From the NCBI GenBank assembly GCA_010093705.1, contig MU006122.1:5331-69330 (forward strand): DNA of 64,000 nucleotides, given 5' to 3'. Source of the stretch: Patellaria atrata CBS 101060. Its lineage: Eukaryota > Ascomycota > Dothideomycetes > Patellariales > Patellariaceae. Below the pieces are notes generated by a model that saw nothing but the letters and a program-made list of their open reading frames with translations, was not told where the DNA came from and ran no database searches. The translations under genes and the position numbers were made by a program. Below are positions 24,091 through 60,058 of this stretch, one piece after another. Positions within the stretch are counted from its first letter, which is position 1, and each line of letters starts with the position of its first letter.

Positions 24091-25190
24091 TATTTTTATT
24101 TTTATAAATTATTTTTATAATAATATTTTTATAATAATTTAAATAAATATATTTTTTTATTTTTTAAATAATTTTAATAATAAAAATAAAAATAATTTTT
24201 TAAATTTATAAAAATAATATTTTTATTATAATATAATTAAAAAATAATTATTTAATATTTATATTTATAATAAATAATAAAGATTAAAAGAAATTTAAAA
24301 AGATATAATATTAAAAAAAATAAAAATTTAAAATTTAAAATTTATTTTATTTAAAAAATTTTAAATTAATTTAATAAAAAATATAAATTTAATATATAAA
24401 TATTATAAACTTTTTAAATATATTTAATTAATTTATTATAATTTAATATATTTTTATTAAATTATAAATAATTAATTAATATTTAAAAGTTTTTTTTTAA
24501 ATTTTTTTTATATATTTAAATATTATATTTAATCTTTTCAAAATTTTTATAATATTATATAATTAATTAAATTATTTTATAATTATTATTATTTTAAATC
24601 TTTTTTAATTATTTAAATATTATATTTTATTATATTATTATATTAAATTTATTTTTATTTATATATTTTTTTTTAATTATTATTATTAATTATTTTTTTA
24701 ATTTAATAATATAAATATTTATAAATATATTTTTATATATTATTAATTTAAATTTTTTTATAAATTATATAAATTTAAATTAAATTATTATAAATAATTT
24801 AATAATAAAATTTTATATAAATTTTAATTATAATTTAAATTTAAATATATTTTAAAATAATTTAATATTATTTATATATTAATTAAAAAGAATATAATTT
24901 TTCTATTATAAAATATATTATAAAGTTATTAATAGTTAAATATATAGATTTTATATATTATTAAAAGTAATTAATATTTTAGTAATATCTCGCTAAATCT
25001 AGCTTAACGCTAATATTTAATCGGTCGATCTATATTAAAAGGGATCGGTTACTTTAATCGTCGGTCTATCTTGGTTGGTTGAGTGCGTTGAGACGTCCTT
25101 ATCACATCGATGTGTAATCGTAATAGTATTATGAAATATAACCTAGCTAGATTACTTCGAGGTCATAAAGAGCAAATGCGAGCCCACTGA

Positions 25191-26218
25191 TCAATCCCAA
25201 TCGCTGTCATCACTTGCTTGATCGATCTTGCTGTTCAATCCCTGGGAGGATTGCTCGACGTTTGAACAGGTCCTGAGAAGCTCATCACTACGTTGATCGC
25301 CATGTTGGTGTAGGCGAGGATCATTTGGCCCTAGAGCACCAACCTCTAAAAACAATTTCTCGATGTCTGGGGTGTTCATTTCGTCAGTATCGTTTGGAGC
25401 AGTGACATGGCATCCTCCACGTCAAGAGTATTATATTCATTGTCCAGGAATATATAATCAAGGAAATGAATGAAAAAGAGGTATATTACCTTGGTGATTA
25501 GTATGGACTCCACGAAGTTCGCGCAATGTTACCACTTGCTTTTTGATGTTCCCGTCTTTGTATACTAGGATAGTGGGCGTGTTTCGCTCAGGATAACCTT
25601 CTATGCACATATCGGCCTGCATTTGACAGAACTTGATGTCACCGAAGCGTCTGGCCAACACACTCCATGCTTCGACCAAAAGTGCGGTTTCGGGGTCTAT
25701 GCCGTGCGAGGAAGTGAGGAGTACCAGGACAAACGATTTTCGTGATGCCTCGGTTACATCTTTGGAGTAGTCTGGCTTTTGTAGATGGAAGACCTGGTTG
25801 TAGATAGCAGTCTGCGCTATATTCGACAATTCTTTAACTCGTCGTCTCCTGGATATACCTTCAGACATACCGTTCGAGGGTAGAATATAGAATCAAATGC
25901 TTACCTATACTGCTCAAGAAATGCTTCGTCTTCATCTTCTTCAAGTTCCGCAAGCTCATCAATATCTTTCCCTTCAAGTCTGTTCTCGTGCGCCAAGTTC
26001 CTTGCCTCCTCAAGTGCCTCTTGGATCATCGACGTGGGAGAAGGTGGCTTCTCAGGTATCACCCCATGCTTCCTCAAAATATCATTCCTGTAGCAGCGAA
26101 GCCCTCATCAGCTGCTGTTCCATATACCAAAATGACTTTAGATCTCACACACTTACCACTCCGTGTCAGCGTTTGGGTCATCCAAAGGAACGTTGACAGG
26201 GATATTAGCGGTATTCAT
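25191..26218 (-). CDS. PLP2: Phosducin-like protein of the PhLP2/Plp2 type
   Basis: A cofactor of the cytosolic CCT/TRiC chaperonin that helps fold actin, tubulin and other substrates; essential in yeast (family knowledge). I read four exons: 26218-26157, 26087-25905, 25848-25490 and 25414-25191, which join in frame to about 275 residues. The start gives the family's N-terminal block PNADTEWNDILRKHG. An acidic helical stretch follows (ELEEDEDEAFLEQYR), then a thioredoxin-like fold with ERNTPTILVYKDG and a C-terminal helix VGALGPNDPRL. The end is acidic (DDSDWD), as in relatives. The last intron (25489-25415) is the least certain. It is the first gene beside the A+T block, its stop lying only about 100-200 bases from the composition change. 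Confidence 0.88.
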
Positions 26219-26276
26219 AACTATTATCGGGGCGTAAGGTACACGGTTGATAATACGCCATATGCAGTTTCATATG

Positions 26277-26540
26277 CTATTTGAACACTCTTGGATAGAA
26301 TGGCACCCAACAGTGAAGTATCTTGTACTGTCTGTATACAAATAGGTTTACCGCCTTCTGCTTGGAGCGGCATAAAGTCGGCAGTAAACTTAGTAGACCA
26401 CAAGTAAATTCAGGCGGTGAGAGACCTGACACCACGACCAGCCAGATTGCCCAACCGCAAACCGCGTAGTTCATTTCTAGAATTTCTAAGTGTTGGGCAC
26501 AAATATCCTCGTCTTTTTCGTCCGCCAATGCTGCCGCCAT
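26277..26540 (-). CDS. Small ORF between PLP2 and SEC21, doubtful
   Basis: An 87-codon frame from ATG at 26540, with an acidic N-terminus (ADEKDEDICAQHLEILEMN) and a hydrophobic stretch (GWAIWLVVVSG) that could span a membrane. I recognise no family. It lies in the roughly 460-bp divergent promoter space between PLP2 (start 26218) and SEC21 (start 26680), so it may be a chance frame. Its end is only 58 bases upstream of the PLP2 start, leaving little room for two promoters. Confidence 0.2.
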   Translation of the reverse strand: MAAALADEKDEDICAQHLEILEMNYAVCGWAIWLVVVSGLSPPEFTCGLLSLLPTLCRSKQKAVNLFVYRQYKILHCWVPFYPRVFK

Positions 26541-26679
26541 AGTTCTAATTGTTGTTCCTGTCTAAGATAAACCCAATTTACATGTTGAATCAACGAACTT
26601 GGCTTAACTCCCATTAGTATCCCGGAATCACCAATTTGCACTATTCAACGGCAATCAAGGACGTTGTGTCCTTCTCACC

Positions 26680-29600
26680 ATGAGTGCCTACAAGAAAGAC
26701 GAGGACGCGGATGGGTCGATAGTGAAGGTAGACAGGACATCGGTGTTCCAAGAAGGTACCTTGAACATACGCCTCAAGGAATTCTATATCTACTGATACT
26801 TCCTTCTATCAGCTAGAGTCTTTAACTCCTCTCCCATATCTCCTAGAAAATGCCGTATTCTCCTCACAAAGCTCTCCCTACTGTTATTCACGGGCGAGAA
26901 ATTCCCCACGAATGAAGCTACATCCCTTTTCTTTGGAATCTCAAAGTTGTTTCAGAATAAGGACCCCAGTCTGCGACAGATGGTGTACCTGGTAATTAAA
27001 GAGCTTGCCTATACAGCAGAGGATGTGATCATGGTCACCAGTAGTATCATGAAGGACACTGCAGTCGGAAGCGATGTGTTATATCGTGCAAATGCTATAC
27101 GCGCACTATGTCGCGTGATAGATGTACGTATACACCAAGATGTGTTTTCACAGTCGCTGACCGATGTAGGCATCCACAGTTCAAGCGATTGAGAGATTGA
27201 TTAAGACTGCCATTGTTGACAAAACGCCCTCGGTATCATCAGCCGCGCTCGTCTCATCATACCATTTACTCCCAGTAGCCCGTGATGTAGTCAGACGATG
27301 GCAAAGTGAAACCCAAGAAGCTGCTTCCGCATCCAAGTCCTCAGGAGGGTTCTCGTTGGGCTTCGGTGCCTCTAGCAATCAAGCGTCATTAGCAGCGTCG
27401 AACACAAATTTCATGACGCAGTACCACGCAATCGGTCTTTTATACCAGATGCGGTCTCATGACCGAATGGCACTCGTCAAAATGGTCCAACAATATAGCG
27501 CTGCGGGTGTAGTAAAGAGTGCAGCTGCCACCATGCTTCTTGTTCGTTTAGCCGCAAAGCTTGCGGAGGATGATCCAAACTTGAGAAAACCAATGATGCA
27601 ACTTCTCGATGGATGGCTGCGGCATAAAAGTGAGATGGTCAACTTTGAAGCTGCTAAAGCAATATGTGACATGAGAAATGTCACGGATGCGGAAGTAGTT
27701 CAATCTATCCACGTTCTCCAACTATTTTTGACATCACCGCGCGCTGTTACCAAGTTTGCAGCTATTCGTCTCCTTCATAGTTTTGCTTCATTCAAGCCCG
27801 ACGCTGTGAGGTCGTGTAACCCGGATATTGAAGCTCTCATCACGAATAGTAATCGATCCATAGCTACGTTTGCTATTACTACGCTTCTCAAAACCGGCAA
27901 TGAATCGAGCGTTGATCGTCTCATGAAACAAATATCAGGCTTCATGGCCGAGATTACGGATGAGTTCAAGGTCACCATCGTTGAAGCTATTCGTACGCTG
28001 TGTCTCAAATTCCCCAGCAAGCAAGCCGGCATGCTTGCCTTTCTCAGCGGTATTCTACGGGATGAAGGGGGTTATGAGTTCAAACGTGCAGTTGTTGAAA
28101 GCATGTTTGATCTTATAAAATTTGTGCCGGAGAGTAAAGAAGACGGTAGGTGCACCAAAAGCATGATTCTGTCATACTAATTTCTCACAGCGCTCGCCCA
28201 CCTTTGTGAATTCATTGAGGATTGTGAATTCACTAAATTAGCTGTCAGAATTCTTCATTTACTTGGGATGGAGGGGCCAAAGACAGCTCATCCCACAAAA
28301 TATATTCGGTACATCTATAACCGTGTCGTCCTCGAAAACGCGATTGTTCGTGCCGCCGCAGTCACTGCGCTTGCAAAGTTTGGCGTAGGTCAAAAAGACC
28401 CAGAAGTCAAACGGAGTGTACATGTCCTGCTCACGAGATGTTTGGATGATACGGATGACGAAGTTCGCGACCGTGCAGCGCTCAATCTTCGATTGATGGA
28501 AGAGAATGATGATCTAGCATTCAAATTTGTCCGTAACGGCAAGTACTTGATAACTGACGCAACTTCTGGATCCTTTCACTGACAATAAAAAAGATTCAAT
28601 GTTTTCACTTCCGGTTTTAGAGCACCAGCTCGTCATGTATGTCACCTCGAATGGCCGAGATACCTTCACTCAGCCATTTGATCTCTCCACGGTTCCTGTA
28701 GTTACACGAGAACAAGCAGACGCAGAAGATCGTACCAAAAAGCTTACTACGGCAACGCTTACTCTGAAAGCCCCGAGCACTGGGCCCCAAACAGAATCAA
28801 GAAGTAGCGCAGAAGCAGCGGCTTCAGCATCTGCTGCTGCTCGAAAATATGCGGAGCAACTGCAGTCCATTCCCGAGCTGGCAGCATACGGTGCAGTTCT
28901 CAAATCCTCGTCTATCGTCGACCTAACGGAATCCGAAACCGAATATGTTGTCAGTGCAGTAAAACATATCTTCAAAGATCATATCGTTCTTCAATTTGAG
29001 ATCAAGAACACCCTACCAGATACGGTTTTAACGGATGTTTCCGTGATCTCGACCCCATCAGATGAGGGCGAGCCAACTTTAGAAGAGGACTTTATCATAC
29101 CAGCCTCCGAACTTGCCACAGATATACCTGGAACCGTTTATGTTGCTTTCAAAAAACTCGCTGAGAATACCCCATATTTAGTGTGCAGCTTTACCAACAT
29201 TCTTAAATTCACAAGTAAAGAAATTGACCCGACGACGAAAGAACCAGAGGACAATGGGTACGAAGATGAATACCAGGTTGAAGATCTTGAATTATCTGGC
29301 AGTGACTATGTCATGCCGGCATTCGCTACAAGCTTTGATGATGTATGGGAAGTTGTAAAATCCGGCGAAGAAGCAAGCGAGACGCTACAGCTTGGCAACA
29401 TCAGAAGTATTGCTGGTACGTATTATAAATTCTATGAGAGTCAATGTCTCTGAATACCGTTGACTAATGATATTTTCGATGACAGACGCTACTGAACAAA
29501 TTGCCAAAATCCTCTCACTACAACCTTTGGATGGGACAGACCTCGCCCTGAGCCACTCAACGCACACGCTCAAGCTCTATGGTAATACAATACAAGGTGG

Positions 29601-29718
29601 TAAAGTCGCAGCGATGGTTCGAATGGCGTATTCGGCAAAGACTGGAGTGACAATGAAAATTGAAGCACGCTCAGAAGAAGATGGGGTCGCTAGCTTAGTA
29701 GTAGCGAGTGTTGCGTAG
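26680..29718 (+). CDS. SEC21: Coatomer subunit gamma (COPI coat)
   Basis: Gamma subunit of the COPI coat that drives Golgi-to-ER and intra-Golgi vesicle traffic. Exons 26680-26755, 26813-27123, 27170-28145, 28191-28538, 28594-29415 and 29486-29718 join in frame to about 921 residues, close to yeast Sec21 (935). The N-terminal adaptin-like HEAT region shows FPTNEATSLFFGISKLFQ and KTAIVDKTPSVSSAALVSSY. A Ser/Ala-rich linker follows (about residues 615-650), then the C-terminal appendage with ATEQIAKILSLQPLDGTD. The fourth intron (28539-28593) uses a GC donor (G|GCAAGT) with a clear CTGAC branch site. Reading through it meets a stop, while splicing restores the conserved N-D-S-M-F-S-L-P-V-L-E-H-Q junction. 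Confidence 0.95.
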
Positions 29719-30304
29719 TTCAAAATGGGCCCAGCATTCTATTGAAATACCTGTTGGTGTGTGTGTTGGGGGGGGGGGGGGGGGGGGGAAGTACATGCTT
29801 TGTTGCGCTTTCAGCCTACACCATAGGTGGGTTATGGTGTTGAGAGTGATCCCAATAGGATAAATTGTGTCCGTTAGAATACGCTCACATCTATCGTCAT
29901 GATAGACGGTAAAATTGTGTTATGATAAATTTACTGTTGTGTATGGTATATCCCAAAATCAATACACCGAACGCAACACCGGGTACATATTTACATTGAA
30001 GGTGGTTTAGAATATCTAGCGTGGCTGTGCAAGGATCATGAAAGTATCAGCACTTCAAAACTGTATAGATGGGCCAGAGTACTGATGACGGAGAGTCCTT
30101 AAGGTATTTCTCAGCATAAATATGAAAGCGATGACGTACAGTATATGTGTAATGCATGACTCGGCGCCAAGTGGTGATGTTGAACCATGTCGAACTCCCC
30201 TCAGGGTGGAATAATAATAATAAGTCAGACTAAATAGAACACCATTGTATTTACAGGGTACTTTACAGTAACCGAGGATTGCTAAAATGAGAGTCTCATC
30301 ACAT
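29719..30304. other. Intergenic space with a 21-base G run
   Basis: Lies between the convergent 3' ends of SEC21 and the GH5 gene. A pure run of 21 G lies at 29768-29788, preceded by GTGTGTGTTG. I see no gene in the rest. Confidence 0.7.
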
Positions 30305-32275
30305 CTATACTACAGTCAGGGTATAATTTGCCTCATTACCAGGCACTCTAGGAAATCCTTCTACCGTAATGGTCACATTTTGCCCGCTATTTACCACACT
30401 CTCTAATAATGAACGTCTAAGGATTAAATGAGCTGAGTCCCAGTTGTAATGGCTATCAAATGTCTAGTTTGATTGCGTCAGTTACAGTCATTGTAGGAAA
30501 AACAATATGTTGCACTCACCAGTCGTCCCCTCTGCAGTGGTCCCAGCCATTGAGTCCAGTCATCAACGAGTATACCACCGTCACTTTTCATAGCACGTAC
30601 AGCTGCTGGTTTGGACAATCCCTTCCAGCTGATGGGAATGTATAGGTCTTCGCTAGCATCAACCATGCTAGTTGTTTCTAAGAGGGTTGGAGTGTCCCAT
30701 TGCACTATTCGCAAACAGATGTCGGCTCCTTGTGAGAAGGACAGAACAATTCCGCCAGCTATCCCAATAGAAGACGTAAAGTTGTTCCAACTAGGCCTAA
30801 CAAAGTTCGAGACAAAATTGGATTTGAAGGTAATGGAATCGGACGCCACGAAGTAATCCCAATCTTTCTCCAGCACAATACTTCCAGCTGTGACTTTATC
30901 GAGTGTGTTGCCGTTAAACACAAATGGAAGCTTCTGATCGGTGGGCATTGTGCCCGCATGGTGAAATAAGAATGCAGAGCTGAACTGGCTTTCCGCTGCG
31001 GCATCTTTAGTACTATCTGGAAGACTGTTCACTTCGCCTTTTTGGGCGCTCATCAAAACATCGATAGCAACAGGATCCCGCCAGATATGTACGGTACGAT
31101 CAAGCTGGTCTGCTCCATTGTCCCATAGCATAGTCGAGGTATTATACTTTTTTGCCAAACGAATAAAATGGTCGTAGAATTTCCATCTGGCCGCGGTTTC
31201 TGTGTGAATGGGGGATGCAGACCATTCGCCGATAATCAAAGGAACTTGGGTAAAATTATTGCGCACATTGGCGATGTCACTTTCGAGTGCAGTAATATCG
31301 GCCTCGGAGCCCCAAATGGTCTTACCCCAGGCACCAAAGATGAAGTCATCTAGATGGCAGGTTGATAAGTACGTGTCTTTCATGATCCATGGGTGGTAAC
31401 CAAAAGGAGCATAGGGTTCAACTCACATGGAGAATAGTAGTGATACTGCAATGCCCATGGATTTGAAATATTCATGGGTGGTTTGAACCACTGAGAAGTT
31501 TTTATAGTGTCTTCGCCGAGGCCAACAAGCGTTACCACACGCTGAGCGTTGAAACCGCCAGCATCCTGGATGGCTTTGAGGAATATCTCGTTCATTCTAT
31601 TCTGTTGAGCGGCGTGTTCCGACGTGCTACCGGGGGGCTCATTTATTGGTTCGAACGCAACTTTGGAAGACTTGCATGCTAATTTAACACCGATCTGATA
31701 CCACAACCGATAGAACTTTTCTTCGATCATTTGCACATCAGCATCCGGTTTAGAAAAATCATACCAATTCCAGGAATCGTGATGCACATTGGTGATGACA
31801 TAGAATCCGTACGAGAGGGCCATGTCAATAACATCCGACACCCTTTGAAGCCAATCGGGGTCAACGGTCCAAGTTGGACCATCGGTGATAAAATGGTATG
31901 CCCAGGTTACTTAATCGCGTCAATTCCTTCACTGATGATAAGGTACAATCAATAGTACTTACCTGGTATCCGCACGCTACTGAAACCAGCAGCTCTCGCA
32001 TCTTCGAAGGTTACTGACTCCACCTTGGGATTGTTCCAGTCCCCTTCCGTTTGGATTGCGTCGAGCGTGTTTCCCAAGTTCCACCCTGGATCTGAGGCGG
32101 CTACATAATCTTCCGCTGAGACATGCTCAAACGTGCCTGGGCACTCCGTGCTATTCACTATCTGACGTTGTAAAACCCCTGTGGTCCCTCGCGCACGTGG
32201 GTAAACTTCGTGTGGTTGAGAAGATGAGAAACCTATAAAAAAAGGCGCAAGGACGAAAAGGGATATGCCTCGCAT
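30305..32275 (-). CDS. Secreted glycoside hydrolase family 5 (cellulase-like)
   Basis: Predicted extracellular beta-glycanase. Exons 32275-31963, 31909-31427, 31349-30520 and 30463-30305 join in frame to 594 residues. The first ATG gives a hydrophobic signal peptide (about residues 1-19). The GH5 landmarks follow in order: GWNLGNTLDA (64-73), VHHDSWNWYD (146-155), the acid/base Glu in FEPINEPPG (E195) and the nucleophile Glu in IIGEWS (E307). The C-terminal half (about 370-594) resembles the two beta-sandwich modules attached to some GH5 enzymes (CBM_X2- and CBM46-like); this is inferred from pattern only. The terminal exon (SHYNWDSAHLILRR onward) is needed to complete the last module. The exact substrate (beta-1,4-, 1,3- or mixed glucan) cannot be read from the sequence. 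Confidence 0.88.
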
Positions 32276-34036
32276 TCTGATCAAGTACTTAGCGTATGAA
32301 TTCCTTTCTGTCCAAGAAAGCTAAACACTCCTTTGTGATGATGTGCTGAAGCATTGAGGGAAGCCCCCGATTATATGCGAATTATCATATGGTTCTAGAC
32401 GTGCCGACTTAATTTTGGAATACATTGCACGTTTCGAACTAGGGAGAGATTGCCAGATCATCGTATTCCCGGAGTCCAACTACACGAGTTTGAGAGTCAC
32501 CTTCAGCAAAGCAAAAACGGGTGGAGATTGTGGGTGTGATCTCGCTAAGGGAAATTTATATTGATGAATATAAACGATCCCTGTCAAATACGATGTCTAG
32601 CTTGTAGATCAAGACCTAGTGAGGATACATAAGCTTCTAGATTCTATCAAATAAATGCAATGATTGGCCCGGGAGAAGGTTAAGCATTTGATCTTGCGCT
32701 GGGTGCACTCGTAATAGCAGTGGCAAGGAGTCGAAGGTTCACCATTGAACCCAGCCAGTTGGTACCGTACGTAAAAGCTGTGTACAGTACAAGGCATGTG
32801 GAACGCCAGCATTTATAAAAACGTACTATGACTAAATAGAGATCAAAAACAATAGATTTTCTGAGTAAGAAAGGGAGAGTATACGGACACTTCAAAACGT
32901 ACTTTTAGACCCGAGCTAACTGTAGGACTACTGTATGCCCAGAGGAGCTATTCAGCAGGAATCTCCATGCGGACAATACATCATTCTATACCAAAATACT
33001 ATGTTTATTCACTCAATGGGATATTATATTTCGTCATAGAACACTTAAGGTATTATCCGTATAGGGATTCCTGCCATAAATCGCTCCTCTAGGCCATACA
33101 GTAGTCCTACAGTTAGTTCGGGTCTAAAAGTACGTTTTGAAGTGTCCGTATACTTTCCCGAAAAGGAAATGGAGAAATGATTGAAACAAAAGGATAAGAG
33201 AGGAAAGGGGAACAAGTCGAAGAATTAGAGAGTCAGAACCTCTGAATACGCTAGATTAAGGATTCACGCGGTATAGTACCACGTATAGCGCGTTCACAAT
33301 GATACATTCAACTTTACGATATTCCCTGCCATTGTTTGCCTCATAAATGGGAACAGCCTACTATTCAATGTAATTTCTTCGAGACTGTATGAACCCTGAA
33401 AAACGAGGTCAATGAATCTCGTTGTAGCGGCGTGGCGGGCGTACGGTTAGCTAGGCATTATATAATAAGGGAAGGGTAGATATAAAATTAGGAGCTTAGG
33501 ATCAAATAAATCACTCATGCAGGTAAGACAGACGTCGATTGCAGTACTCACTGGCGATACACATAGTAGATATATGGAACTGAGGAAGTACCAGCAGAAA
33601 GAATACAAAAGGTAGAATGAGACACTAAAGTAATGAGATGGATATATAATAGTATACGTTCTATGTCCTCGTACTCCTATTTTACTGTACGTCTACGCTT
33701 CAAGAGCCCAGGAGCTTTTCGACAAAAGTACAGACCGCCGGAGAAGGCGCACGGGGTTTGGATTCTCTGAAAATCAATATGTGTACAGTGAACGTACAAT
33801 AGTAAGAATAGTCCCATAAACAGCAGGAAGGCAAATATGATTGTGGTTCATTTCAGGCTCCGTCAGCTATCGATTCTCCAAAATCCGTGACATAAAGTTA
33901 GCAAAAGTAAGTTAGTATCTGCGAATGCACAAAATATTTGAAGAAAGTATTGATTGCCTTTGTAGCTCTATTTGGTAGTCTAACGGCAAGTGCAATACGG
34001 TCAATTTCTCACATGTCCTTATAATCTTCTTCACTG
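32276..34036. other. Gene-poor stretch between GH5 and COX13
   Basis: About 1.76 kb. It holds the GH5 promoter on the left (minus-strand gene) and a MITE-like inverted repeat at 32880-33152. For the rest I see only short frames without conservation and no RNA gene. The distance suggests a GH5 promoter plus inserted repeat sequence rather than a missed gene. Confidence 0.5.
32880..33152. mobile_element. MITE-like element with long terminal inverted repeats
   Basis: The left arm starts GTATACGGACACTTCAAAAC and the right arm ends with its exact reverse complement. The arms match for about 110 bases with few differences and enclose only about 50 bases, so the whole 273 bp could fold into one hairpin. 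The TA at both outer edges fits a TA target-site duplication as made by Tc1/mariner or pogo-type transposons. No transposase is encoded, so it would be a non-autonomous element moved in trans. The family is inferred from structure only. Confidence 0.7.
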
Positions 34037-34680
34037 TCACTCCTTCTTATGGTAATTGACCTTGTCGTTCCAGAAAAGGGTCTGCATAAGCTCATGTTAT
34101 TATGATCCATTTCAATTAGGGGCGCAAACATTGAAATTGGAGCTTGTGACTCGGACTTCCGAATGATTGGCCATATAAGAAAGAGAACCCAAGCTTACCT
34201 TGTCCCCATCTCCCCAGAAGTAGTTCTTAGACCTTATGTTTTGGTACGAATATTCGGTTTTCTCCTCTAACGGCGGTCCGTGTGCGAAATGTTCCCAATG
34301 CTCATTCCACAGAACCCACGCATTAGCGCCCGCGATTATGATGGCAGGAATGACAGCGCTCCAGAGATCGTTAGCCTTATCGCAGGTGAAACGAACAAGG
34401 CTTCTCGCTCAAACAAAATGTCGGGGACCGACTTACTAGATGGAAAGTTTACGCCAGGTGTCTGTTAATTCGTAATGTTAGCAATGGAAGCTACCGTCAA
34501 GCACCTCAGCTTACCGCTTGTCTGCTCTGCATGGTGTTTCACGGCTGCTCTCTCTCGATTGAAGGCATTATCTTGCACACCCGTAAGCTCGCTGGCGTAA
34601 GTGCGACGGATCACAGTACGTAGGGGGGGAATGCGGATGGCTCGCAAAGGAGGCCGCCCGAAAAGATTTCGAGAAATCAT
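34037..34680 (-). CDS. COX13: Cytochrome c oxidase subunit VIa (mitochondrial)
   Basis: A small, nuclear-encoded subunit of respiratory complex IV in the inner mitochondrial membrane. Exons 34680-34515, 34461-34437, 34358-34199 and 34081-34037 join in frame to 131 residues, the usual size. An Arg-rich presequence (MISRNLFGRPPLRAIRIPP) is followed by the transmembrane helix (AVIPAIIIAGANAW) and the signature WNEHWEHFAHGPPLEE. The C-terminus FFWGDGDK-type block is here NYFWGDGDK|TLFWNDKVNYHKKE. The second exon is only 25 nt and is supported by the reading frame and by conserved TWRKLSIY. It is divergent from APN2 with 306 bases between the two start codons, the arrangement commonly found at ascomycete MAT loci. 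Confidence 0.93.
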
Positions 34681-34986
34681 GATTGAAACTGATTGTAGGG
34701 GTCTAAGATTTAATGAAGATTTCAGTATGTTGATGTTCTTCGTCAATTGTTGATGCGTCCTTCGGATGTCAAGAAATGGGGTGAGGTCAGTGAACTGACC
34801 GGCCAAGAATGGACTTGGCAAAATTGGTGCAGTACAATAAGAACCTGCTGACTAAGAACTTAAGAACCAACCACCGAGCCGCCTAAACTAAAAAACCTAA
34901 TCACCCACTCAGGTGGGACAAATACCCTCAAATGGTCAAATTCCGACGGATAGTTGAGTCCTCGTTTTCTATACAAGCCCATCAAA

Positions 34987-37028
34987 ATGCCTCTTCGCAT
35001 TACGACGTGGAACGTAAATGGCATCCGTAATCCTTTCGGCTATCAACCATGGAGCTCGAACCGAACCTTTGGTGCTATGTTCGATATCCTGGACGCTGAC
35101 ATTATCGTTATGCAAGAGCTGAAGATTCAACGGAAAGATTTACAAGATGATATGGTTATTGTTCCGGGATGGGATTGCTTCTTTAGCCTTCCGAAGCACA
35201 AGAAGGGTAAGGGAACATTATTGCAATATAATGCTTGAGTACCGAGCTAACGCAGTAGTTTAGGGTATTCAGGTGTGGCTATATATACCAAGGAGTCTGT
35301 TTGCGCTCCCATCCGTGCAGAGGAAGGCATCCTCGGCGTCCTGTGCCCCCCTGGTTCAAGCACAGCATACAGAGACTCTCCTTCCGAGGCCACAATAGGC
35401 GGGTATCCCTCGCTAGAACAGACCGAAAACTTTAAAACAGATTCCTTGAGTCTCGACTCTGAGGGACGTTGCGTGGTTCTTGAATTCCCCGCGTTTGTAT
35501 TGTTTGGCGTTTACTCTCCGGCTAACAGCAATGGACTTCGTGATGACTTTCGGTATGCTTTTCTCAGCGCGCTTGACATCCGAGTCCGTAATCTGGAACG
35601 CAGTGGGAAGAGAGTCATCATAGCAGGAGACTTGAATGTATTAAGAGCGGAAATTGACTCAGCTCATGCAGAAGAGACTTTGCGCAAGGGAGTATTAAAT
35701 CATGAGGAGTTCATCTCAACCCCTAATAGAAGAATCTTCAACCAATTGCTTGAGGACGGTGAGGTTATCGGTGAGAGGGATAAGGATAGAGAAGAACCAG
35801 TTCTATGGGATATTTGTCGAGGATTCCATCCGACACGGAAGGGGATGTACACACAGTGGGAGCAAAAAATCAATGCCAGGCCAGGCAATTTCGGTAGCAG
35901 GATAGACTTCATTCTTTGCAGCCGCGATATGAAAAGCTGGTTTTTATCAGCGGATATCCAGGAGGGACTTATGGTATGCTTGTCAAGGAATTTCTATGGC
36001 ATTCTTATTGATTATATTAGGGCTCAGACCACTGTCCCGTTTACGCAGATTTGCATGATAAGATCATGCTTGGCGATAATGTTATAGACTGTCAAGACAT
36101 CATGAATCCTGTTGGTACTTTCTTATATGGGACGCGGGTAATATCTCCCAGCACAAGAGAACCTCTCCTTTTATCGGGAAAGCGGCTACCTGAGTTTGAC
36201 ACAACAAAACGTAGGAGCATAAAGGACATGTTCCAGAAGAACTCCAAGTTCTCCCCACTATCTAGTGATGAAAATACGACTACAGGGATAGAAATGTCAG
36301 ACTCGAACTGGAACGCGTCTTTGAAGAATGTAGCGAAGCACTACAAGCGGAAAAGATCTGTAAAGCTAATGGTCGAGGGGAATTCAAAGTCTCGATTATC
36401 CTATACTGCTTCTCGCCCAGGAGACCAGAAATCACTTGAAGACTTTTTTTCGAGACGAGTTAATAAGACCGCTCGTAAACCGCTCGTGCAGCCAGTCCTC
36501 ACAAATAAATTTACTACTCTTTGTGACTCCGTTATTGCCTCAGAGCTCTGTTCTAAGGATTTTCATTACACTAATCCCGACGAATACGGCATTCCCTCTA
36601 CTACCAAACCTGAGATGAGTAACCCGTTTAATCTGAGCATAGATCACGCAATCAGTAATACACGTTCAACTGCACATGGCTCGACCGAAAAACCGAGCTC
36701 GTCCTTTTTAGAGCAGGATGTTAGCCTCGCCGGTCATGCTCAATCGAGTTTTTCATGGAGCAACCTTCTCCGCAAACCTGCACCCCCTCGATGTCAAGGT
36801 CATCATGAACCATGTATCATGCTCGCAACCAAGAAAAGCGGAGTGAATTGTGGCAGGCGCTTTTGGATATGTGCCAGGTATGGATCCATCCCTTTTTTTT
36901 TTTGAATTGAACATATGCGCATTGCTGACTCCATCTATGTTTATAGACCTGTTGGACCCTCCGGCATCAGAGAGTCTGGTTCAGAATGGCGCTGCTCAGC
37001 ATTCCTGTGGGCAAGCGATTGGAAGTAG
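34987..37028 (+). CDS. APN2: AP endonuclease 2 (class II, exonuclease III family)
   Basis: Cleaves DNA at abasic sites and trims blocked 3' ends in base-excision repair. Exons 34987-35206, 35264-35973, 36021-36877 and 36947-37028 join in frame to 622 residues, usual for filamentous fungi. Catalytic landmarks are visible: TTWNVNGIR (N11), MQELKIQ (E44), AGDLNV (D196, N198), RIDFILCSRD, and GSDHCPVYADL (D313/H314). A PCNA-binding PIP box, QKSLEDFF, lies at about 446-453. The C-terminal GRF zinc finger has CGRRFWICARP and a final EWRCSAFLWASDW. This start gives the conserved MPLRITTWNVNGIR; an upstream in-frame Met gives a poorer fit. APN2 normally borders the mating-type idiomorph. Confidence 0.95.
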
Positions 37029-37170
37029 GAGATCATCCTTTTAATGGACATCAAATTCATAAAACCTATATCAAGTCGCCATATCCTCACAAGAACAACA
37101 CATCTTATTGATGATTGATGTGAAAAGCAGTAAAGTACAAATTTGGCCATAGTAGACTTGATAAAGAATG

Positions 37171-39139
37171 CTAACCCATGATCGTTTGCCAGTGGTTATC
37201 AAACATAACATTGATCCAAAATACATCCTCTTCGCCGTTGTCGAGACGGCGCCAGACCTCTTTGATTAATACTAGCATCTGGCGGAGGGGTTCCGCCGGT
37301 AGTTTTCGACAAAACTCTCTTAGCCGTCCTTCCACAAATCGCCGTGCATACGAGACCTTAGAATCGTTTGCATGGAAATCATAATAGTCCAATGAGGCCA
37401 CATATCTCAATTCAGAAGATGCAGTTACTAGAAGAATTGGTTGAAGGCAGCATGTCCCGGAGGATAGGGGCAAGCTTTCGAGGGTTTTCAGTATATATAT
37501 CGCGAAGGAGTTGACCCAAATTTGCATATCGAGGGGACTATCATTACAGTCAGGGGCAAACTGTGGTAGTCCATACGTGCAACGCCTTTCATCAATTTCA
37601 CTCCCCGAACCAAGGCGTTGCCTGAGAATTTGTGGGAAAATACGATAGATCTCCAAAAGCCCCGCGCACCGGTAAGCTTCCCCAATAGTAATAAAGTGTT
37701 TCTTCGCTGTGTTCTCATCCCCTGGGTCAATCAGATCATCTAGCGTAGGTAATTCAAGTTCCAGAAGCTGTTGTTCCAGCGCGGTAGCCCAAACGAGTTC
37801 CACGTCATCATTCAGTGATATATAATCGCATGCACGATTCCTATTCAATCGCTGCTGACGCACAAGGCGTCCAACTTCAGCGAACAGCATCTGAGTTCTT
37901 GGACACACGCCTGTCCAGGGGTGTGGAAGGATTTTATCCTTCGGTTCGTTGGAGTCCTTGCATCTACTCAGGTTACCAACACCCAACCAGGGATCCCAAA
38001 CATATGTGCAAGATTCCTGAGAAACGAACCCCAACAACATTTCCCAATAAATTAGACTCTCTTTAAAGAATTGGTTATGTCGTTGGGTTGTTTTTTTCGT
38101 CTGAGGGCCTATTCGAGTAAGTTTAGGGTAAATGAGATTTCTCGCCGCATGAAGATGTGCTAGTCCAAGATCTCTGCAATCGTGCCAGGCCGCAGAAAGC
38201 CCCAGCAGCAATATAGCCAATAGTATTCTGTCATTAGGTTGTTTTTCCGTTTCAACTCGTCGTAGTTCCTCATACAAACATGAATATGCACTTTGTTGGA
38301 GCTTGAGCCCGCGAAGTTTCATATGAGGGAATATGTTGGCCAGTTGTGCGGCGGCCATGCTCTGTATAGCATAGTAGATCGAGGGCGTTTCCTGCCATAT
38401 CTGACCAACAGATACTCGAAAAGGGTTTAGAGTTCCGTCATAGGAGGAGAAAACAATGCATACTTCTTTGAAATAATGTTCCACCAGATTTGTTCCAGGT
38501 CCATGTAAAGGTCGGCGGGGATCAAAACGTATTCCAGAAGCCGGGATATGCCAATCAGATGCGTCCGTACGAGCTCTCATATCAGCCTTAAGCTGATCCA
38601 CATATCCCTTGCTACCGTTTGAGTTGCTACTGTCATTGTCGGCATGAATCTCCTTTGGGGGAATATAGCGATTGTTATGTGCCGGGAGACACCGCGTTCC
38701 AGTGTTAGGACCTATATTCGAGTTTGCTGCAAAATTTCCGGTCATGCTTCCCTCAGCTATCCTGAATGCTTCAGCCACTGATGGGTGAGGAAAGCTTGAT
38801 CCCGCAACCTCCCTCTCATCTCTAATACCCCTGAATGGAGATCTCTGTGACTCGGGGTAGGATGTTAACAGTTCATATTTTGTTGACCATTTCAGCGACT
38901 TCTTGTATCCTGGGCAAGTTATGTCGCGGGTTAAACAATTTGTACAGGAGGGCTTAGTTTCATCGCATTTGAGCTATTCACTCATCAGTGTTCATAAATA
39001 CCTTCAAAACGATATCAGGCGCTCTCACCCGCTTATCCTTACAATGCAGACAGCCGTTGCGGGACTTTGCCAGTCTCCGGGCATTATGTGATGTGTAGCT
39101 AGTGTCTTTGTCCGCTACCGCAGAATACACACGTACCAT
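37171..39139 (-). CDS. Zn2Cys6 fungal transcription factor (Fungal_trans_2 type)
   Basis: Nuclear DNA-binding regulator of unknown target. Exon 39139-39029 and exon 38973-37171 join in frame (intron of 55 bases) to 637 residues. The zinc cluster spans the splice site and is canonical: C30-x2-C33-x6-C40-x6-C47-x2-C50-x6-C57, read as GCLHCKDKRLKCDETKPSCT and onward. The long C-terminal region (about 190-600) has the helical pattern of the fungal-specific regulatory domain, with LLAILLLGLSAAWHDCRDLG and DVFWINVMFDN. The ATG at 39139 could itself be followed by a splice donor (ATG|GTACGT), so the start is less sure than the body. It sits convergent with APN2 (142 bases) and occupies the APN2-SLA2 interval where MAT genes usually lie. 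It is not an alpha-box or HMG protein. Confidence 0.85.
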
Positions 39140-40548
39140 TTTGGCCGATTAGAGTGTGACCTGATGAGAAGACAATTGCCTTATATATCGCAGTCTCCAA
39201 GTCTGGAGACGATACCTCAGATACTCGAACTACAGATCAGGCGTCGACGCGGGTTTGATATTTTTCCTAAATAAAGTGATCTTGCCGTGATCAATATTAA
39301 ATAGTCGCACCGGATCAGCATTTATTATTTTGCGGGAATTGGTCGATAAAAGTTTCACGAGATACTCCAGTATCATGCTGTAGTTCAACCAGACTAGATC
39401 TAGAACTAAAACGGGGTAGTTCTATAGAACTGAGATCCGGTTAGAAATCTCTGCTACGTTGTCGAACCCCTCGTTACTTCAGGACCAACTGGATGATCCT
39501 CATTACATAAAGGAAATCAAACAATGATACTATTCGTGCGACTTTACCTATGATCTTACAAAAACTGCCTATACCTCCTCGCGACGTTGAATTTGTTCCG
39601 AATTCGGCGAGAGCGTACAGCAAATACATAGCAGGTACTGTACAGTACAACATAGTTCTTTGCTCTTCATGTCATTTTATAGATTGTGCTCCTTTCGTGG
39701 TACTCCCGATCTTAGAGAAAACGATGGAGTTGTGATCAACTCCTTACAGACCGTAAATCGATAATGTACACTTCTTGCTACTCATACAGCACACGTTACT
39801 CGTCCAACTCCCTCGGAAGCGACCAGGCACTCTGTTACCATCAGTATGCCTCAACCTGTATACTAGGCTAAAAATTGGTGTCAGAGCTGTCAGGTCCGAT
39901 GTGTAATAGATATGCATAGTCAATTTAACTAAATTAGTTGTCCGGTTCAGGTAATTCCTAAGGCCTCGGCTCTCTGCTGCAATAAAGATTAGGACGATTA
40001 GAAAATGAGGGTAAGGGATGGATATCTTGTTGGAACACTAGACGGTAAAGCTCTTTGTTTATCTCTCAACAACCAAAAGGGTCAACCTTAGCAGCGTACG
40101 ACTCATGGTTACTATAGTCCTCTGGGCCCTCTGGGGAGTCCGTTACTACTAAACATAAGGTACATCGTGAGACATATTATGAAGTATTTGACAACCCGAA
40201 AAAGCGTCACATATTGAGTAATATGCGGGTATGCAAACGTCAAGACCAGCTGTAGTGTGGTGTAGAGTCGACACATACCGCTATTCCTCTAATTCAGAAA
40301 TGACGTTCTCTATTAACCTATGCTTAGCTTGGTTCACGACGTTAAGAACACCCATAGTTCGATATGCAAGAAATATAACGGTCATAGCCACGTTCTTGAC
40401 CATAAGTTCCATTATTTACATGTTCGCGATAAGAATCAACAGTAAGCGGCTCCTATAAACGTAAAATGTGGTGTTGGAGTATATTTAAGGAAAGAGATTT
40501 CGTGAAAGACAAGTGTAGACTTTCACCTGCACGTCTGCAAGTAGCGCC
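39140..40548. other. Non-coding part of the APN2-SLA2 interval
   Basis: About 1.4 kb between the Zn2Cys6 start and the SLA2 stop. It carries a perfect 14-base palindrome GTACTGTACAGTAC at 39635-39648. Only two short frames exist (39550-39735 and 40231-40458), neither with a known motif. I searched for HMG-box and alpha-box signatures of MAT proteins on both strands and saw none. It is probably the regulator's promoter plus unassigned sequence. Confidence 0.55.
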
Positions 40549-43500
40549 TTATTCTTCTTGATAGGAGATTTTGCGCATCTCACCGAGCCTTTGTCGTGCT
40601 TGAGCAAGACTATTCTCCAACTGTAAAATCTCGACCTAAAGGAAAATTGTTTTAGTAGGAATACAAGTTGCGCAGGAACGAGTGCGGAATAGCGTAGCGG
40701 GAGATATACCTGTTGCTCCATCTGTCTAACCTTAAACTCATGGTCACTGAGTTTACTGTAGTCCACAACCTCGTTCTCGTCTCTATTTCTCTGTGCAATG
40801 ATATCTTGCACCTGGCGTACGAGTGCGCGACAAGCGAATGTAACAGCTTTGCTGGCGCCCTCCAGTCGATCTTGGGTCTTGCTCATGAAAGAAGCTTTAA
40901 CACGACTGGCGGCAACTAACTGCGCGGTGCTGGCAGCAACGTCATTGCTGGCTACTATCAACTGCTCTGGAGAATTGCGGCCGCTTATCACACCATCGGC
41001 CGTTTCAATCAAGGTGTTGGTGGAACTAGCAACAGCTTTGGCTGCACTGATCAATCCCTCCGTCCAGCGATTATGTTTTTTGTAGAATGCGGTCTTGGAC
41101 GATGTGCCACGCCCCTCACGGACGATTTCTTGCTGTGATGCTGTAGCGGCTTTGATCAGTTGCGCAATTGCGTTTGTGACGGCAATAGCAGCTTCCAATA
41201 TAGAACTAAGACATGCAATTAGATAACGGCGGCTTAGGTGATGGATGGCTGACTTACTCATGTATTCGAAGTTCGTACGTCGAGTATGAATCCCTTGGCT
41301 TGTTCATCAACTTCGTCAGTTTCTCCGTTGCTGCTTCAATAGCCTTTGCAGCGTTGGTCATTTCCCGGTCAACGAGATCGCCCAAGTCCCCCTGGGCTGA
41401 GGTGATCTTGCTCTTAGGCGCGAACGCATCCGCAAGCTTGGAAAGCTTCTGAAGATTGACTTGCACCTCATTGTTGTTATTGATTACGACATCCGTTTTC
41501 TGTATATCCTCTAAGCCGTCCAATCGAAATGATTGCAGAGCACGGAAGAAGTTCACAGTAGACTGTGCCGAATGTCTCGCTGCATTTATCAGTTGATCGG
41601 CTTTCTTCTCATCAGAGGCAAAGCGCGTAAGGCCTTTAGTATTGCTAAGAACGTCTGCAACAGAACCAGAAAAGGTATTGACGGTCCTGATGATTTCCGC
41701 GTGAGTGCTATTCGGGCCATCGGCGATGAAGTTATTGAAAGCAGTAGAGAATTCCATAGCAGTAGTCGATGCTTTTTCTATCTGGGATAATACATACGGT
41801 CCCGAAGCATTCTGATTACCAGCTTGCATCGAAGAGTCGAGTTCGTATAATGCATCGTCTACGCGCTGCACACCACTTTGCAGCACTGAATCAACAATAT
41901 CGTTTATTTTACGAAGATTATCTGTAACCATAGTATCAATATGGCCATCCAATGCATTATCAGTCTCCTGATGAGTTTGTTTCAGTTCATTAAGTTCAAT
42001 CAGCGTTTGGTCCATGCCGGCTTTGAATATTTCTAGTTCTTCTTCCTTCTCACGTAATTGGCGTTCGAGGTCAGAATCACCTTCTCGGTATTTCATCGAT
42101 ATGTCATCCAATGCCCGTGTTTTACTTCGTAAAGATTCTTCTAGATCGGCAATTTCTCTGTTATGCCTTGATAACATGGCAGATAGCTCAGAGCCTTTGG
42201 CCCGTTCCGCGTTCTCTGCTTTGTCGAGTGCAAAACGTAATTCTCGCTTCAGCTTCTCTAATTCCTCACGGTGGCCACCTGTCGTCCGGTCTCTATCGTG
42301 TAACGCTCTATCCCGTTCTCTGATCATATCGGCGAGCTCTAGATTCTTCGTCTTGAGTTCCCGCTCAAGTTTCTCTCGTCGGTCGATCGCTTCTTGTGCT
42401 GATGCGGCTTTCAACTGGATTGACTTGAACTTCTGTAGTAGTTCGAGATGCTCGTGCCTTAACTGCGAATATAACTTAGCGAGCGCCTCATACTTTGTCC
42501 TCCAAGTGTTCAGTTGCTCCTGTAGAGCTCTAATTTGATCATCTTTTGACTGTGACTGCTGCGCAAAATTACTATTCAACTGCTGTAGCTCCGTTTCCAA
42601 AGCTTTCATTCGTTGATCGTATTGCTGCAACATTAATTGATCAGTCTGATATTGCGCCTTAGCAGCAAGATTTTCGCGCTCCAGCTCAGCTAATCGTCCT
42701 TGAGTCTGCTGTTGGTATTGTTCACGCAGTAACTGCTCTTGTGCTAGTCGTTGCTGTTCCGCTTGCAATCTTTGTTGCTCTTCGAACTCACTCTGTGCTT
42801 TGAGAGCAGCTTGTTGTTGCTGTAACTGTGCAGCCGCCCATTGTTCCTGTAGTCTTCTCTGTTCTTCCGCGTATTCATCTTGTTGCCTTTTCTGCTCATT
42901 TTTCCAGAACTCATTGATTGGTTCCGGGTCGACTGACGCAGTCCGCGGAGGCGTCGGTACGGTGACCGATTGTTCAAGTTCTTTCGCAGGTCGAGCTGGC
43001 AATGCCGGTCGGTCTTCATCATCGGAGAGAAGGTTCGGAGGTTCTTGCGGTAGTTTGGGCACAGTAATTAGACTCGTAAGGTATCTCAGGTTTGAACATT
43101 CATAATAGAACTTGACTAATCTGTAATGTTGAGCATCGTACCGTCCTCGAAGCGGTGATAGAGCTTCGTCATCACCAAGCGCTATGTTCTGTTAGCGATG
43201 ATTTGGGTAGCAAGAAGGCGGTAATTACTTGTATGCATAGCTCTCAGCATGCTCGTGATAAACTTGTAGATACCATAACTTTCTTGAACTAGCGGTACCA
43301 GTGCCGAAATCCTGCATTCATTGTTCGCACCAGATCTAAAGTGAGAGAATATCAACTTTTGGAAGTTTTCAATCTGATCCTGAAGCGTCATTAAATCTGA
43401 TATTGTTTCATACCTAAAACGGTGTCAGTATTCTATGACTCGTCTTGACGAACCGAGATACACACCCTTCGTTAGGATCGTTGATCGACTTGAGACTGAT

Positions 43501-44271
43501 GTATTCTTCATACTCGAAAGTGCCTTTTCTGGTATAAGCAGATGAGAAGCACGATCTCCCGGGATGTCTTACCGTTGAATTCAGGATGCTGTTTGTGGAA
43601 CGAGAGCTTGGCTAGCAAGAAGAAGATGTACTCTTGTATAAGAGGTCCATAGCCTATAATTTCGAGTCAGGGGGTCCTATTCGCACCAATATGATAGGAA
43701 GTTATGCGCACCGCGAAGCCCATCACCTCCTGCAACACCACGAGTTAGGCTTTCCAACCAGCTGGTATTTGCCTGCGCTTCCCTCAATGCGATCGGGTGA
43801 CCCTCTTGTAGGACTTTATGTACGGTGATTAAGGCCTTAAATGTTTGAACCTCGTCGGCGAGGATTGGTTGGCTACGTGTACCTATGTTAGCGCTGGAGG
43901 TTGATCACAGCAAATCACTGATACTGACACTTTCATGCCCGCCCAGAACGACTGAGAGGATTTATGATCCCATGTATATACAATAGCAGCCCTAACATGT
44001 TTCCCTATCCCAAATAAGCTTTGTCCGCTGAGTTCAGTGAGAGAGAAGGAAGGTGATGGTACGTTTAGGTGCTGTTTCTTCTACAATGAATTTAGTGACG
44101 TGTTGAACTAAGGGAAATGGAAGGTCAAGTACCTATACTGGTGGCCTTCTTAATATTTATAGCAAGTTCCGATTCCTGCCTGAGTGTGTTCAGTATGTCA
44201 TAATCCAGCCGTAGTACTTAAGATGCGTACTTTCCCATATCCACGTTACGCGTGGAACCATACATAGCCAT
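40549..44271 (-). CDS. SLA2: Sla2/End4, HIP1R-like endocytic adaptor
   Basis: Links clathrin-coated endocytic sites to the actin cytoskeleton at the plasma membrane. Eleven exons join in frame to 1,057 residues: 44271-44231, 44179-44133, 44080-44063, 44004-43929, 43872-43712, 43653-43573, 43523-43466, 43413-43229, 43181-41258, 41205-40710 and 40635-40549. The N-terminal ANTH domain shows KATSIEETAPKRKHVRAAIV, AIVYTWDHKSSQSFWAGMK and KFYYECSNLRYLTSLITVPK. A Gln/Glu-rich coiled coil covers about 320-650. The C-terminal talin-like I/LWEQ actin-binding domain runs from about 780 to the end, with TAFYKKHNRWTEGLISAAKA. Exon 3 is only 18 nt. The intron after AGMK uses a weak GTCAGT donor but restores the conserved AGMKVQPILADE. 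SLA2 is the other classic border gene of the MAT locus. Confidence 0.94.
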
Positions 44272-46185
44272 GACGAATGCGGAAAGACGAGTTACCGCGC
44301 TGAGATGGTAAGCTCTCTAAGGAAAAAATACAAATCCTGGTAATAAACCCAGAGATACGAGAAAATGTAAAAGTGTGCAAGCTCCTGAAACTTGATGATT
44401 CTTCTGCCTTTGAGCTTGTGAAAGTGTGACGCTTACGGTACATGTTGTCTTGGCATTGAGCTATATGGTGCACATTACTACCAAAGGTATATTGTTTCTT
44501 CTCCTCTATTCTGGCCTATAATCTTTATAGTTCTACTACTTATTGCTATCTACTATACAGTAAGGCTATAAAAGTATTACTCTCCGCTGGTACTTAACCT
44601 TCCTAATACTCAAGACATAGGTACGACTATTATAACAGCCTAAAATACATATCTCACGGTCAAATCCAGTAGAGAGTAGAAAGAAAACAATACTGGGCTC
44701 TCCTTTAATATATATACTTGATAATTTTGCTCTTATTCTTTTCTCCCCTTTCTTTCTCCCCTTTCTTCTTTGCAGCTCGAGAAGCATCTAGATACCGCTG
44801 TGAAGACGCTCTCCCCCGAAGGCATGTAGACTCTGTTAAGAATAAACAGCGTATGATCTGCAAGCTTTAATTCTAAATCTTCCATTTGTCTTCCACATAT
44901 CGGTTTGGAGAGAGGGTGAAATCAATTACTCCCTAGGGGTATATATTATTTAAGATTGGCCACTGAAGCAAAAGACCGACCTCAATGCCGAGTAGTACGA
45001 CTTATATCTAACAATCGGGAACTTGAAATAGAAACTTGTGGACACAATGCTTACCTTAGCTTGCGATAGGCGGTCCATTGTTCCTGGCATATATCTTCAG
45101 CTGTAATGTATGAATGAACCAGGTATGCCTTTAGCTAAAATGCATGTAGAAAAGGTATATACCTCCAGGTATTCTATATATCGTGGTGGAATACGGGAAG
45201 CTATATGTATTATTCGTAGAATACGTGCTAGCAGTAACATTATAAAACCACACCTCAGTTATAGCGCTATAAACCCTAGAAAACACGTATTGGATGGTAA
45301 CCATGCAGCTGCCATTCCAAAGACCCCCTCCCCCTCCTCGCTAAGGTATACATCCAGCCATGGTTATTGTAACGTTGGATATACCTTACCGTGTTACGTA
45401 TGTATACACTAAAGAGCCCTGGATAATGCCTTGTAAACAAACCCTGTGGACCCCATTTGTTCTTCGTGGGGTTGGCACGCTAGAAGCACCGACCGATGCG
45501 ACCACACGAACCGCTGTGGAGGTACCTTAGCCAAAGCTATCCACAAGCTCAGTATCGAGCTATGAAAAGAAGAAAACAAGAAGAGGAGAGAAGGAGAAGA
45601 GGAATATAAACCCCTGAAGAGTAGGTAGTCCTATTCCGGGCCGACTTCGGCTATTTCCCAGCCAATATAGGCCAGAAGCATGAGGAAAAATGCCGTAGTT
45701 CTCCCAGACTTATGCGTAGTAACCAAAATTGCCGGTGCTGACATGTCCTGGTGTGTCTCTTAGTCTTGCTTACTATCCCAGCCAACTCAGGCGTACTCTG
45801 TAATCATAATATGCAAGATGGCAAGCTTGATGGGAGTGTGCATTAACCCCGTTGACAGCAAAACTTTCTAGGACTTATCTCCCGTCTTCATGCCTAAAGG
45901 ATTCTTTCCTCCTTACCAGCACTTCCAACACAGTTCACTTTGCGTTCATCTCGAGCTAAGGGTTCGTCTTTCAACCCCCAACTAAGGTTTGCATAGCTTT
46001 GAGAGAGGAGATTCTACAAGACGTAAAAGGAAAGAGAAGGGGAAAACTAGAAAGCATGAAATAACTGAGGCTACCGGAAGCAGACTTACACTTTCTACCT
46101 GCCAAACCATGTGGATCTCAATATCCAAAGTCCCATACTTGCACTGCTAATATCAGAAAGCGCCTTGAAACCGACCAGTCACCGT
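44272..46185. other. Long intergenic space upstream of SLA2
   Basis: About 1.9 kb with the SLA2 promoter on its left. It includes a pyrimidine-rich tract at about 44,727-44,773 ending in TTTGCAG, which looks like a splice acceptor, but no convincing exon pair goes with it. TAAGGTATA, TACCTTACC and TACCTTAGCC motifs occur between 45,340 and 45,540. No conserved protein or RNA gene was recognised. Confidence 0.45.
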
Positions 46186-46590
46186 ATGCAGACAGCTTCT
46201 CTCGCCGTTGATACCCCTGTATTCCAACTCCGCTTGCGAGCTTTCCCCAAGCATATCGAGTCTACCAAAAGATGGGACATCTATCATCTGCAGAATCGCT
46301 TACTTGGACCAAAGAAGTTACCCTCATGCGGGTTTTGGGGCAACATCCATGAAGACAGACTCACCGTAAGTCCTCCATATGCCTACCTCTGAAATTTCCT
46401 GACGGCTACATCACTACAGGAAGTATTGCTTCTCAAGACCCCAGATGATATGGAACAAATAAGCTGGAGCCACACCAGACTCGTCTACGCGTACAGCGGT
46501 AAACTTGCCTCATTAGCAATATCTTCTATCAAGGTTGACCAGATCCGAGTGACAAGCTTCTTGAACATGCATACAGTATGTCACGGATGA
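46186..46590 (+). CDS. Possible two-exon orphan gene, about 116 aa
   Basis: I do not recognise this gene. ATG at 46186 opens a 60-codon exon ending at a good donor (ACC|GTAAGT at 46366). After a 54-base intron with a usable acceptor (CTACAG at 46419), the frame continues from 46420 to a stop at 46590. The product would start MQTASLAVDTPVFQLRLRAF and contain CGFWGNIHEDRLT and EQISWSHTRLVYAYSG. The in-frame junction and ordinary composition favour a real gene; the absence of a known domain argues for caution. A further donor (AGCG|GTAAAC) within exon 2 leaves the 3' end open. Confidence 0.35.
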
Positions 46591-47357
46591 CTTGCCAAGG
46601 GAAAGCTGATTGCCTTGTTCTCGTACATGTACATAACAGGGCGTACGTCGCCATCCTGTATGTCTCTTCCCACAAGATCACTTCACCATCCTAGCAAACT
46701 CTTCCTGCCATCGCGATGTCTGAGCTCGAAACTTGGCACACAGGCCACATCCAACCTTCTATACATTCCTAATCATTTTTCTAACTTTCAAACCTGGGTT
46801 TTGATATTGACGGTGTAGTCCACGGAGACTATTGTAGCATCCAATTCCTCTCCCAGCCCATCATCGGAGTATTCCTGGCTACTGTATAGTTTCCCTGTAA
46901 GTATTTTCGAAGGACTGTCACTTCTTTGGTCATGACGCCAGTTTAGTCGGGGCGAAGGAGAAATGATGAAGAAGGTAAGAGCTTAACTTTGTAAAATAAG
47001 GAATAGGGGTGTTTGTGTTGCTGGTGGAATAGTTAGATATACCTGGGATTCTGCATGACAGTGTGGATGATTGATGTAATGAAGATTTCCACATCTTCAT
47101 TGAATCGGTTCTTCAGTGAATACAAAGTAGTTGATGAAATTTGTACCATATGCTTCCATTTCCCTATCCACATGGGACCAACAAAAGAACTCGAAAATAA
47201 CAATCGCCTAAACGCGCAGATAGTTTTCGTTTCACAAACAATCGGGGGTATATACAACCGCCTCATCCTCATCATCCCCGTCCTCATCATCCCCATCCTC
47301 CTCTTTATCATACCCTAATTACAAAACTCACCATTTTTTTTTAATCATCATCCCTTA
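46591..47357. other. Intergenic space, no clear gene
   Basis: Holds the 3' side of the bZIP gene and a short low-complexity stretch of CATC/CCTCATC repeats at about 47,262-47,310. Frames present on both strands are produced by that repeat. No gene supported. Confidence 0.45.
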
Positions 47358-59705: not shown

Positions 59706-60058
59706 TGCTGCACATTTTATCAGTTGCTTATTAAACTTATAAAGATCTTATTTGCCTCTTCAATTGTTAGGACTATCTGTTTCATGATAGTTGTATATGT
59801 GTATGGGACATGTTATTCAACAGGGGTAATTTCAATACTGTGCCCTAATGTATTTAGAAGTATGAATAATTTCCAAACAGATAATCTTAAGAAAGCATTC
59901 CAGTTCTAGGTAACAGTTAACCATGTGCAACTATGTTAAGGTATAGAGGTTCCTAGAACAGAAGCAAAAGTAATTAAGTTTACAGTACTTTGTACATTTA
60001 TTTCTAAAACATACGACCTGTTCATATGTCCACATCAACTAGCGTCGTTGCTCACTTG
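59706..60058. other. Convergent 3' region
   Basis: Lies between the stops of the Asterix-like gene and the mL45-like gene. A/T-rich 3'-UTR-like sequence; nothing else seen. Confidence 0.5.

Follow-up and report, generated by a model that had tools for sequence, protein, structure and literature searches.

An intact COX13-APN2-SLA2 frame holding a Zn2Cys6 regulator gene and no recognisable mating-type gene

What has become of the mating-type (MAT) genes when the genes that normally frame them still lie side by side? The classical Pezizomycotina MAT locus runs COX13-APN2-MAT-SLA2. The window analysed here, a stretch of 64,000 nucleotides, resembles that locus in having the same flank genes, close together. 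It differs in what lies between them, which is a Zn2Cys6 gene and no recognised alpha-box or HMG-box gene in place of MAT. We consider it probable on balance that this is an ancestral Pezizomycotina MAT neighbourhood from which the cassette has gone, the MAT genes having moved elsewhere in the same genome, where they are still used for sex.

The frame, its occupant and its neighbours

Both flanks expected of a Pezizomycotina MAT locus are present, APN2 with COX13 on one side and SLA2 on the other. We found the three genes in the classical order COX13, APN2, SLA2, and all of them read as intact (Table 1). Of the two COX13 exons with PF02046, one matches at 2.9e-25 and the other, below the curated cut-off, at 7.8e-05; the start codon and last exon of this gene were read by eye, as were the last exon and stop of APN2. 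In APN2, PF03372 matches one exon at 3.5e-11 and another at 0.0039, and the GRF zinc ribbon matches a third at 0.0016, these last two values being below the curated cut-offs. SLA2 carries I/LWEQ (PF01608, 9.7e-52) and, on two exons, ANTH (PF07651, 2.6e-11 and 2.4e-16), with ANTH matches on further exons in the six-frame scan. The introns of APN2 and SLA2 are modelled in part only. Between the two genes lies a slot of 3.5 kb, which contains one Zn2Cys6 gene and 1.4 kb without a recognised gene.

The gene in the slot is an intact regulator of the Zn2Cys6/Fungal_trans_2 class. Its single intron (38,974-39,028; 55 nt) has GT-AG borders, and the 637 residues encoded after splicing match Fungal_trans_2 (PF11951) at 9.7e-37 and Zn_clus (PF00172) at 7.2e-08, with the canonical six-cysteine cluster C-x2-C-x6-C-x6-C-x2-C-x6-C. 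The regulator probably plays no part in mating. Carriage of the gene by a transposon was also considered and rejected, the inverted repeats being short only (up to 25 nt). An earlier note on this DNA had described a COX13-APN2 ... SLA2 MAT-locus frame and had recognised only a Zn2Cys6 regulator in the interval 37,029-40,548. Domain matches and gene ends confirm the frame, the gene model and Pfam agree with the identity of the occupant, and the APN2 and SLA2 stop codons lead to the same figures for the interval.

Table 1. Position of the features discussed, numbered from the first letter of the window
Feature	Position	Strand	Remarks
AT-rich block, RIP-saturated on its composition	1-24,950	none	10.8% GC; 20 CA and 39 TG dinucleotides
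COX13 (cytochrome c oxidase subunit VIa)	34,037-34,680	minus	three exons as read; PF02046 on two
APN2 (DNA lyase / AP endonuclease 2)	34,987-37,028	plus	PF03372; C-terminal GRF-like zinc ribbon
Slot where MAT genes normally lie	37,029-40,548	none	between APN2 stop (37,028) and SLA2 stop (40,549)
Zn2Cys6 transcription regulator, 637 aa, intact	37,171-39,139	minus	gene model; PF11951 and PF00172
Gap	39,140-40,548	none	regulator start to SLA2 stop, 1.4 kb; no domain match
SLA2 (cytoskeleton assembly control protein)	40,549-44,271	minus	ANTH and I/LWEQ; both end codons located
MBA1/Tim44-like reading frame	60,062-60,721	minus	Tim44 7.4e-08 (above cut-off); MBA1 0.0012 (below cut-off)
EOS1-like reading frame	62,034-62,621	plus	PF12326 0.00034 (below cut-off)

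The wider neighbourhood is plausibly an ancestral MAT-linked block and not a chance pairing of flank genes, because SLA2 has MBA1-like and EOS1-like genes on its side of the frame, as in Morchella importuna; the matches on which this linkage is based are weak but concordant, with only Tim44 above its cut-off. The MAT flank of M. importuna is annotated Mab1-EOS1-SLA2 in PMC6164635. Mab1 corresponds to MBA1 in PMC10745113, which also describes the SLA2-MBA1 block of Verpa as flipped, so that SLA2 adjoins MAT. Morels carry MAT in this region and share with the window SLA2, MBA1 and (in Morchella) EOS1 near the MAT site (PMC6164635, PMC10745113), whereas the window has no MAT match in the slot by SLA2 or around the MBA1-like gene.

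The other genes right of SLA2 encode a bZIP protein, lipoyl synthase, MED12 and a PX-domain protein. APC5 is often a neighbour of COX13. The six-frame scans gave no match to it, either in 31.9-35.0 kb, to the left of COX13, or in any other stretch that they covered, and its place beside COX13 is taken by genes for coatomer gamma and a GH5 glycoside hydrolase (25,000-34,030). Some parts of the window are without a recognised gene. About 3 kb upstream of SLA2 (44,272-47,300) has neither a Pfam match nor a clearly coding frame, and no gene is recognised in the ~2.3 kb from MED12 to the MBA1-like gene (57,750-60,050), where the codon score reaches a fairly high 15.2 in one window of 40 codons at 58,689 (minus strand). 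A frame at 60,660-61,145, upstream of the MBA1-like frame, has no Pfam match. No RNA families or tRNAs were found in the window.

Search for a MAT gene

No MAT gene is recognised between the flanks. All six frames of the slot, with stops written as X, were compared with Pfam at E values up to 5, in a search whose HMMER filters discard most matches above ~0.1. Neither an HMG-box (PF00505) nor an alpha-box (PF04769) match was found there, and beyond the regulator's own domains the slot gave DUF7758 alone, at 0.12 and below cut-off. Six more stretches (25.0-29.9, 31.9-35.0, 43.3-47.5, 47.8-50.7, 57.6-62.4 and 62.3-64.0 kb) were treated alike, with an E limit of 1, and again showed no HMG or alpha family. 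We regard as chance-level the DUF7758 match, one to Gemini_coat on the minus strand of 57.6-62.4 kb and one to SSFA2_C in 62.3-64.0 kb, each of them below cut-off.

A tblastn search over 24.9-64 kb gave the same result. Five HMG and alpha domain queries were run with their reversed sequences as decoys; the queries scored 23.3 bits at best, within SLA2, and 19.0 bits at best in the slot, against 27.5 bits for the best decoy of the region. By six-frame Pfam and tblastn, then, neither a MAT1-1-1 alpha-box gene (PF04769) nor a MAT1-2-1 HMG-box gene (PF00505) appears between the flanks. The intervals between the Pfam-scanned stretches (29.9-31.9, 35.0-36.9, 40.6-43.3, 47.5-47.8 and 50.7-57.6 kb) consist mostly of the coding sequence of other genes, and for them the search was by tblastn alone. 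In the first 25 kb, to the left of both searches, a working MAT gene is unlikely, since RIP has saturated that block and no stop-free stretch in it exceeds 116 codons.

The six-frame method recovered COX13 and SLA2 exons of 33-54 residues and is therefore able to detect spliced genes here, although these two proteins are better conserved than MAT proteins. According to the earlier note, neither an HMG nor an alpha box was visible in the slot, left of COX13 or right of SLA2. This absence holds in the slot, where a profile match to a MAT protein was sought by six-frame Pfam and none obtained, and on both sides of it in the Pfam-scanned stretches and in the tblastn search of 24.9-64 kb.

Saturated RIP and the probable fate of the MAT cassette

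The left block of the window is, judged by its composition, a RIP footprint at saturation and in two layers. Windows of 200 bases fall as low as 0-2% GC, and the block ends within ~200 bases around 25,000. It combines the depletion of CA and TG with the excess of TA that characterise RIP: overall, (CA+TG)/(AC+GT) is 0.06 and TA/AT is 1.17. Right of 25 kb, TA/AT is below 1 in 29 of 39 1-kb windows. Nested in DNA of 1-10% GC is an 11-kb piece of 16-20% GC (~10.9-22.2 kb), which resembles a younger insertion that has itself been almost cleared of CA and TG. The gap beside SLA2 has a TA/AT of 1.09 and a (CA+TG)/(AC+GT) of 0.88, the latter at the lower end of the range given by four other intergenic stretches (0.90-1.12) and well removed from the value of the left block. 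Indices so near those of other intergenic stretches rule out heavy RIP of the gap and are compatible with light RIP.

RIP acts in the sexual cycle in known fungi. Two-layer, saturated RIP thus points to repeated passage of this lineage through the sexual cycle, and repeated sexual cycles would need MAT genes somewhere. This is the basis on which we favour relocation over long asexuality: saturated RIP lies near the slot and implies sex. A MAT cassette would once have sat in the slot; the COX13-APN2 and SLA2 flanks would have stayed when it left, and an ordinary Zn2Cys6 regulator would now occupy its place. The MAT gene or genes would now lie at a different site of the same genome, from which the strain would still use them for sex. 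The evidence for a vacated slot consists of the intact frame, the intact regulator, the lack of any MAT domain that could be recognised in the slot or the searched surroundings, and the adjacent saturated RIP. It suggests that MAT was once present in the slot, and that it moved and did not vanish. Three outcomes had been proposed for this locus in the earlier note, namely relocation of MAT, its loss in an asexual lineage or a new arrangement. The saturated RIP next door leans towards the first of these and makes loss less likely. However, the RIP block is undated and could be a relic that predates a loss of sex.

Loss would mean the deletion of MAT, though not of its flanks, in an asexual lineage. 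A slot without a MAT domain or a recognisable remnant of one is what this would leave, but strong two-layer RIP nearby means that sexual cycles took place at some time, if only in the past, and according to PMC6414310 several lichens that are supposedly asexual have a MAT locus as well; we therefore regard loss as rather unlikely. No direct repeat longer than 21 nt was found in 36.9-40.6 kb that would suggest a repeat-mediated deletion of MAT, although a finished deletion would leave none. The same 21-nt maximum, together with a gap composition close to what other intergenic stretches show, gives the slot a settled look, as would be expected if a whole clade had moved MAT long ago (cf. Tuber), in which case relatives would normally have an empty slot too and it would not be peculiar to this species. 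Such a move has a printed precedent in Pezizomycetes (PMC3778014), and we hold it to be improbable here, a little more so than loss. Searches for relatives were made where a fungus is hardly expected: coatomer gamma had no match in viral contigs, and an SLA2 pattern had 186 matches in prokaryotic genome contigs, none of them a relative. Solved structures of coatomer gamma and lipoyl synthase did not help to place the fungus either.

The remaining explanations keep MAT, or its function, in or near the slot. MAT1-1-1 proteins diverge fast, and profiles could miss them. A highly diverged MAT gene in the 1.4-kb gap or elsewhere in the window would fit this behaviour, and 28 of 107 true 40-codon windows, no more, score above the gap's best window in a codon-composition test that a short exon could escape. 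Yet the longest stop-free stretch in the gap, of 97 codons, has a negative codon score, the slot has no MAT family by Pfam even at E up to 5, and tblastn stayed below its decoys, so that a hidden gene seems very unlikely. It is still less likely that the assembly collapsed or dropped a MAT cassette. A mixed sample is possible, but the slot is non-repetitive and of ordinary composition, with a complete gene inside and both flanks intact, and the cassette would have to have been removed cleanly. Least credible of all is a sexual fungus that has dispensed with alpha-box and HMG-box genes and in which the regulator replaces MAT, acting as, or being allelic to, the mating-type determinant. Position alone speaks for this, and the domain content is that of an ordinary Fungal_trans_2 regulator. 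If it were true that a lineage with saturated RIP has no MAT gene anywhere, this would amount to a strong and unexpected claim of sex without MAT genes.

Displaced MAT genes in other fungi

Relocation of MAT, the reading that we prefer, bears on how mating-type genes are located. APN2 and SLA2 serve as bait for these genes in new fungal genomes (e.g., PMC10569646), and an intact but empty frame marks where this shortcut fails. It also offers a clean case for studying how a MAT cassette comes to leave its locus, and whether sex persists afterwards. In the literature searched, with most subscription papers outside its scope, we found no account of APN2 and SLA2 as neighbours that enclose no MAT gene.

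If the window came from a lecanoromycete, a displaced MAT locus would be out of the ordinary. In PMC6414310, each of the 39 lecanoromycete genomes has a single MAT core gene flanked by SLA2 and APN2, among scaffolds that, according to its methods, were kept for further analysis only if they had both anchors.

Displaced MAT genes as such are already in print for several Pezizomycotina (PMC3778014, PMC10569646). In Aureobasidium, SLA2 is reported 70-500 kb from MAT (PMC4227064). According to PMC3778014, the MAT locus of Tuber melanosporum is flanked by neither APN2 nor SLA2, and in Pyronema confluens MAT1-1 lies apart, APN2 is 10 kb from MAT1-2, and SLA2 is on a scaffold other than those of the MAT genes. 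Both species resemble the window in that MAT is not where APN2 and SLA2 predict. Unlike in Pyronema, however, APN2 and SLA2 are still neighbours in the window, with no MAT gene seen.

Two further species, Hymenoscyphus fructigenus and Phialocephala scopiformis, share with the window a position of MAT away from APN2/SLA2 (PMC10569646). In H. fructigenus this applies to the MAT1-1 genes; the species differs from the window in that MAT1-2-1 remains with SLA2 and APN2. In P. scopiformis, the MAT genes away from APN2/SLA2 have a SAM-Mtase neighbour, and this fungus might also have an APN2-SLA2 pair without MAT between.
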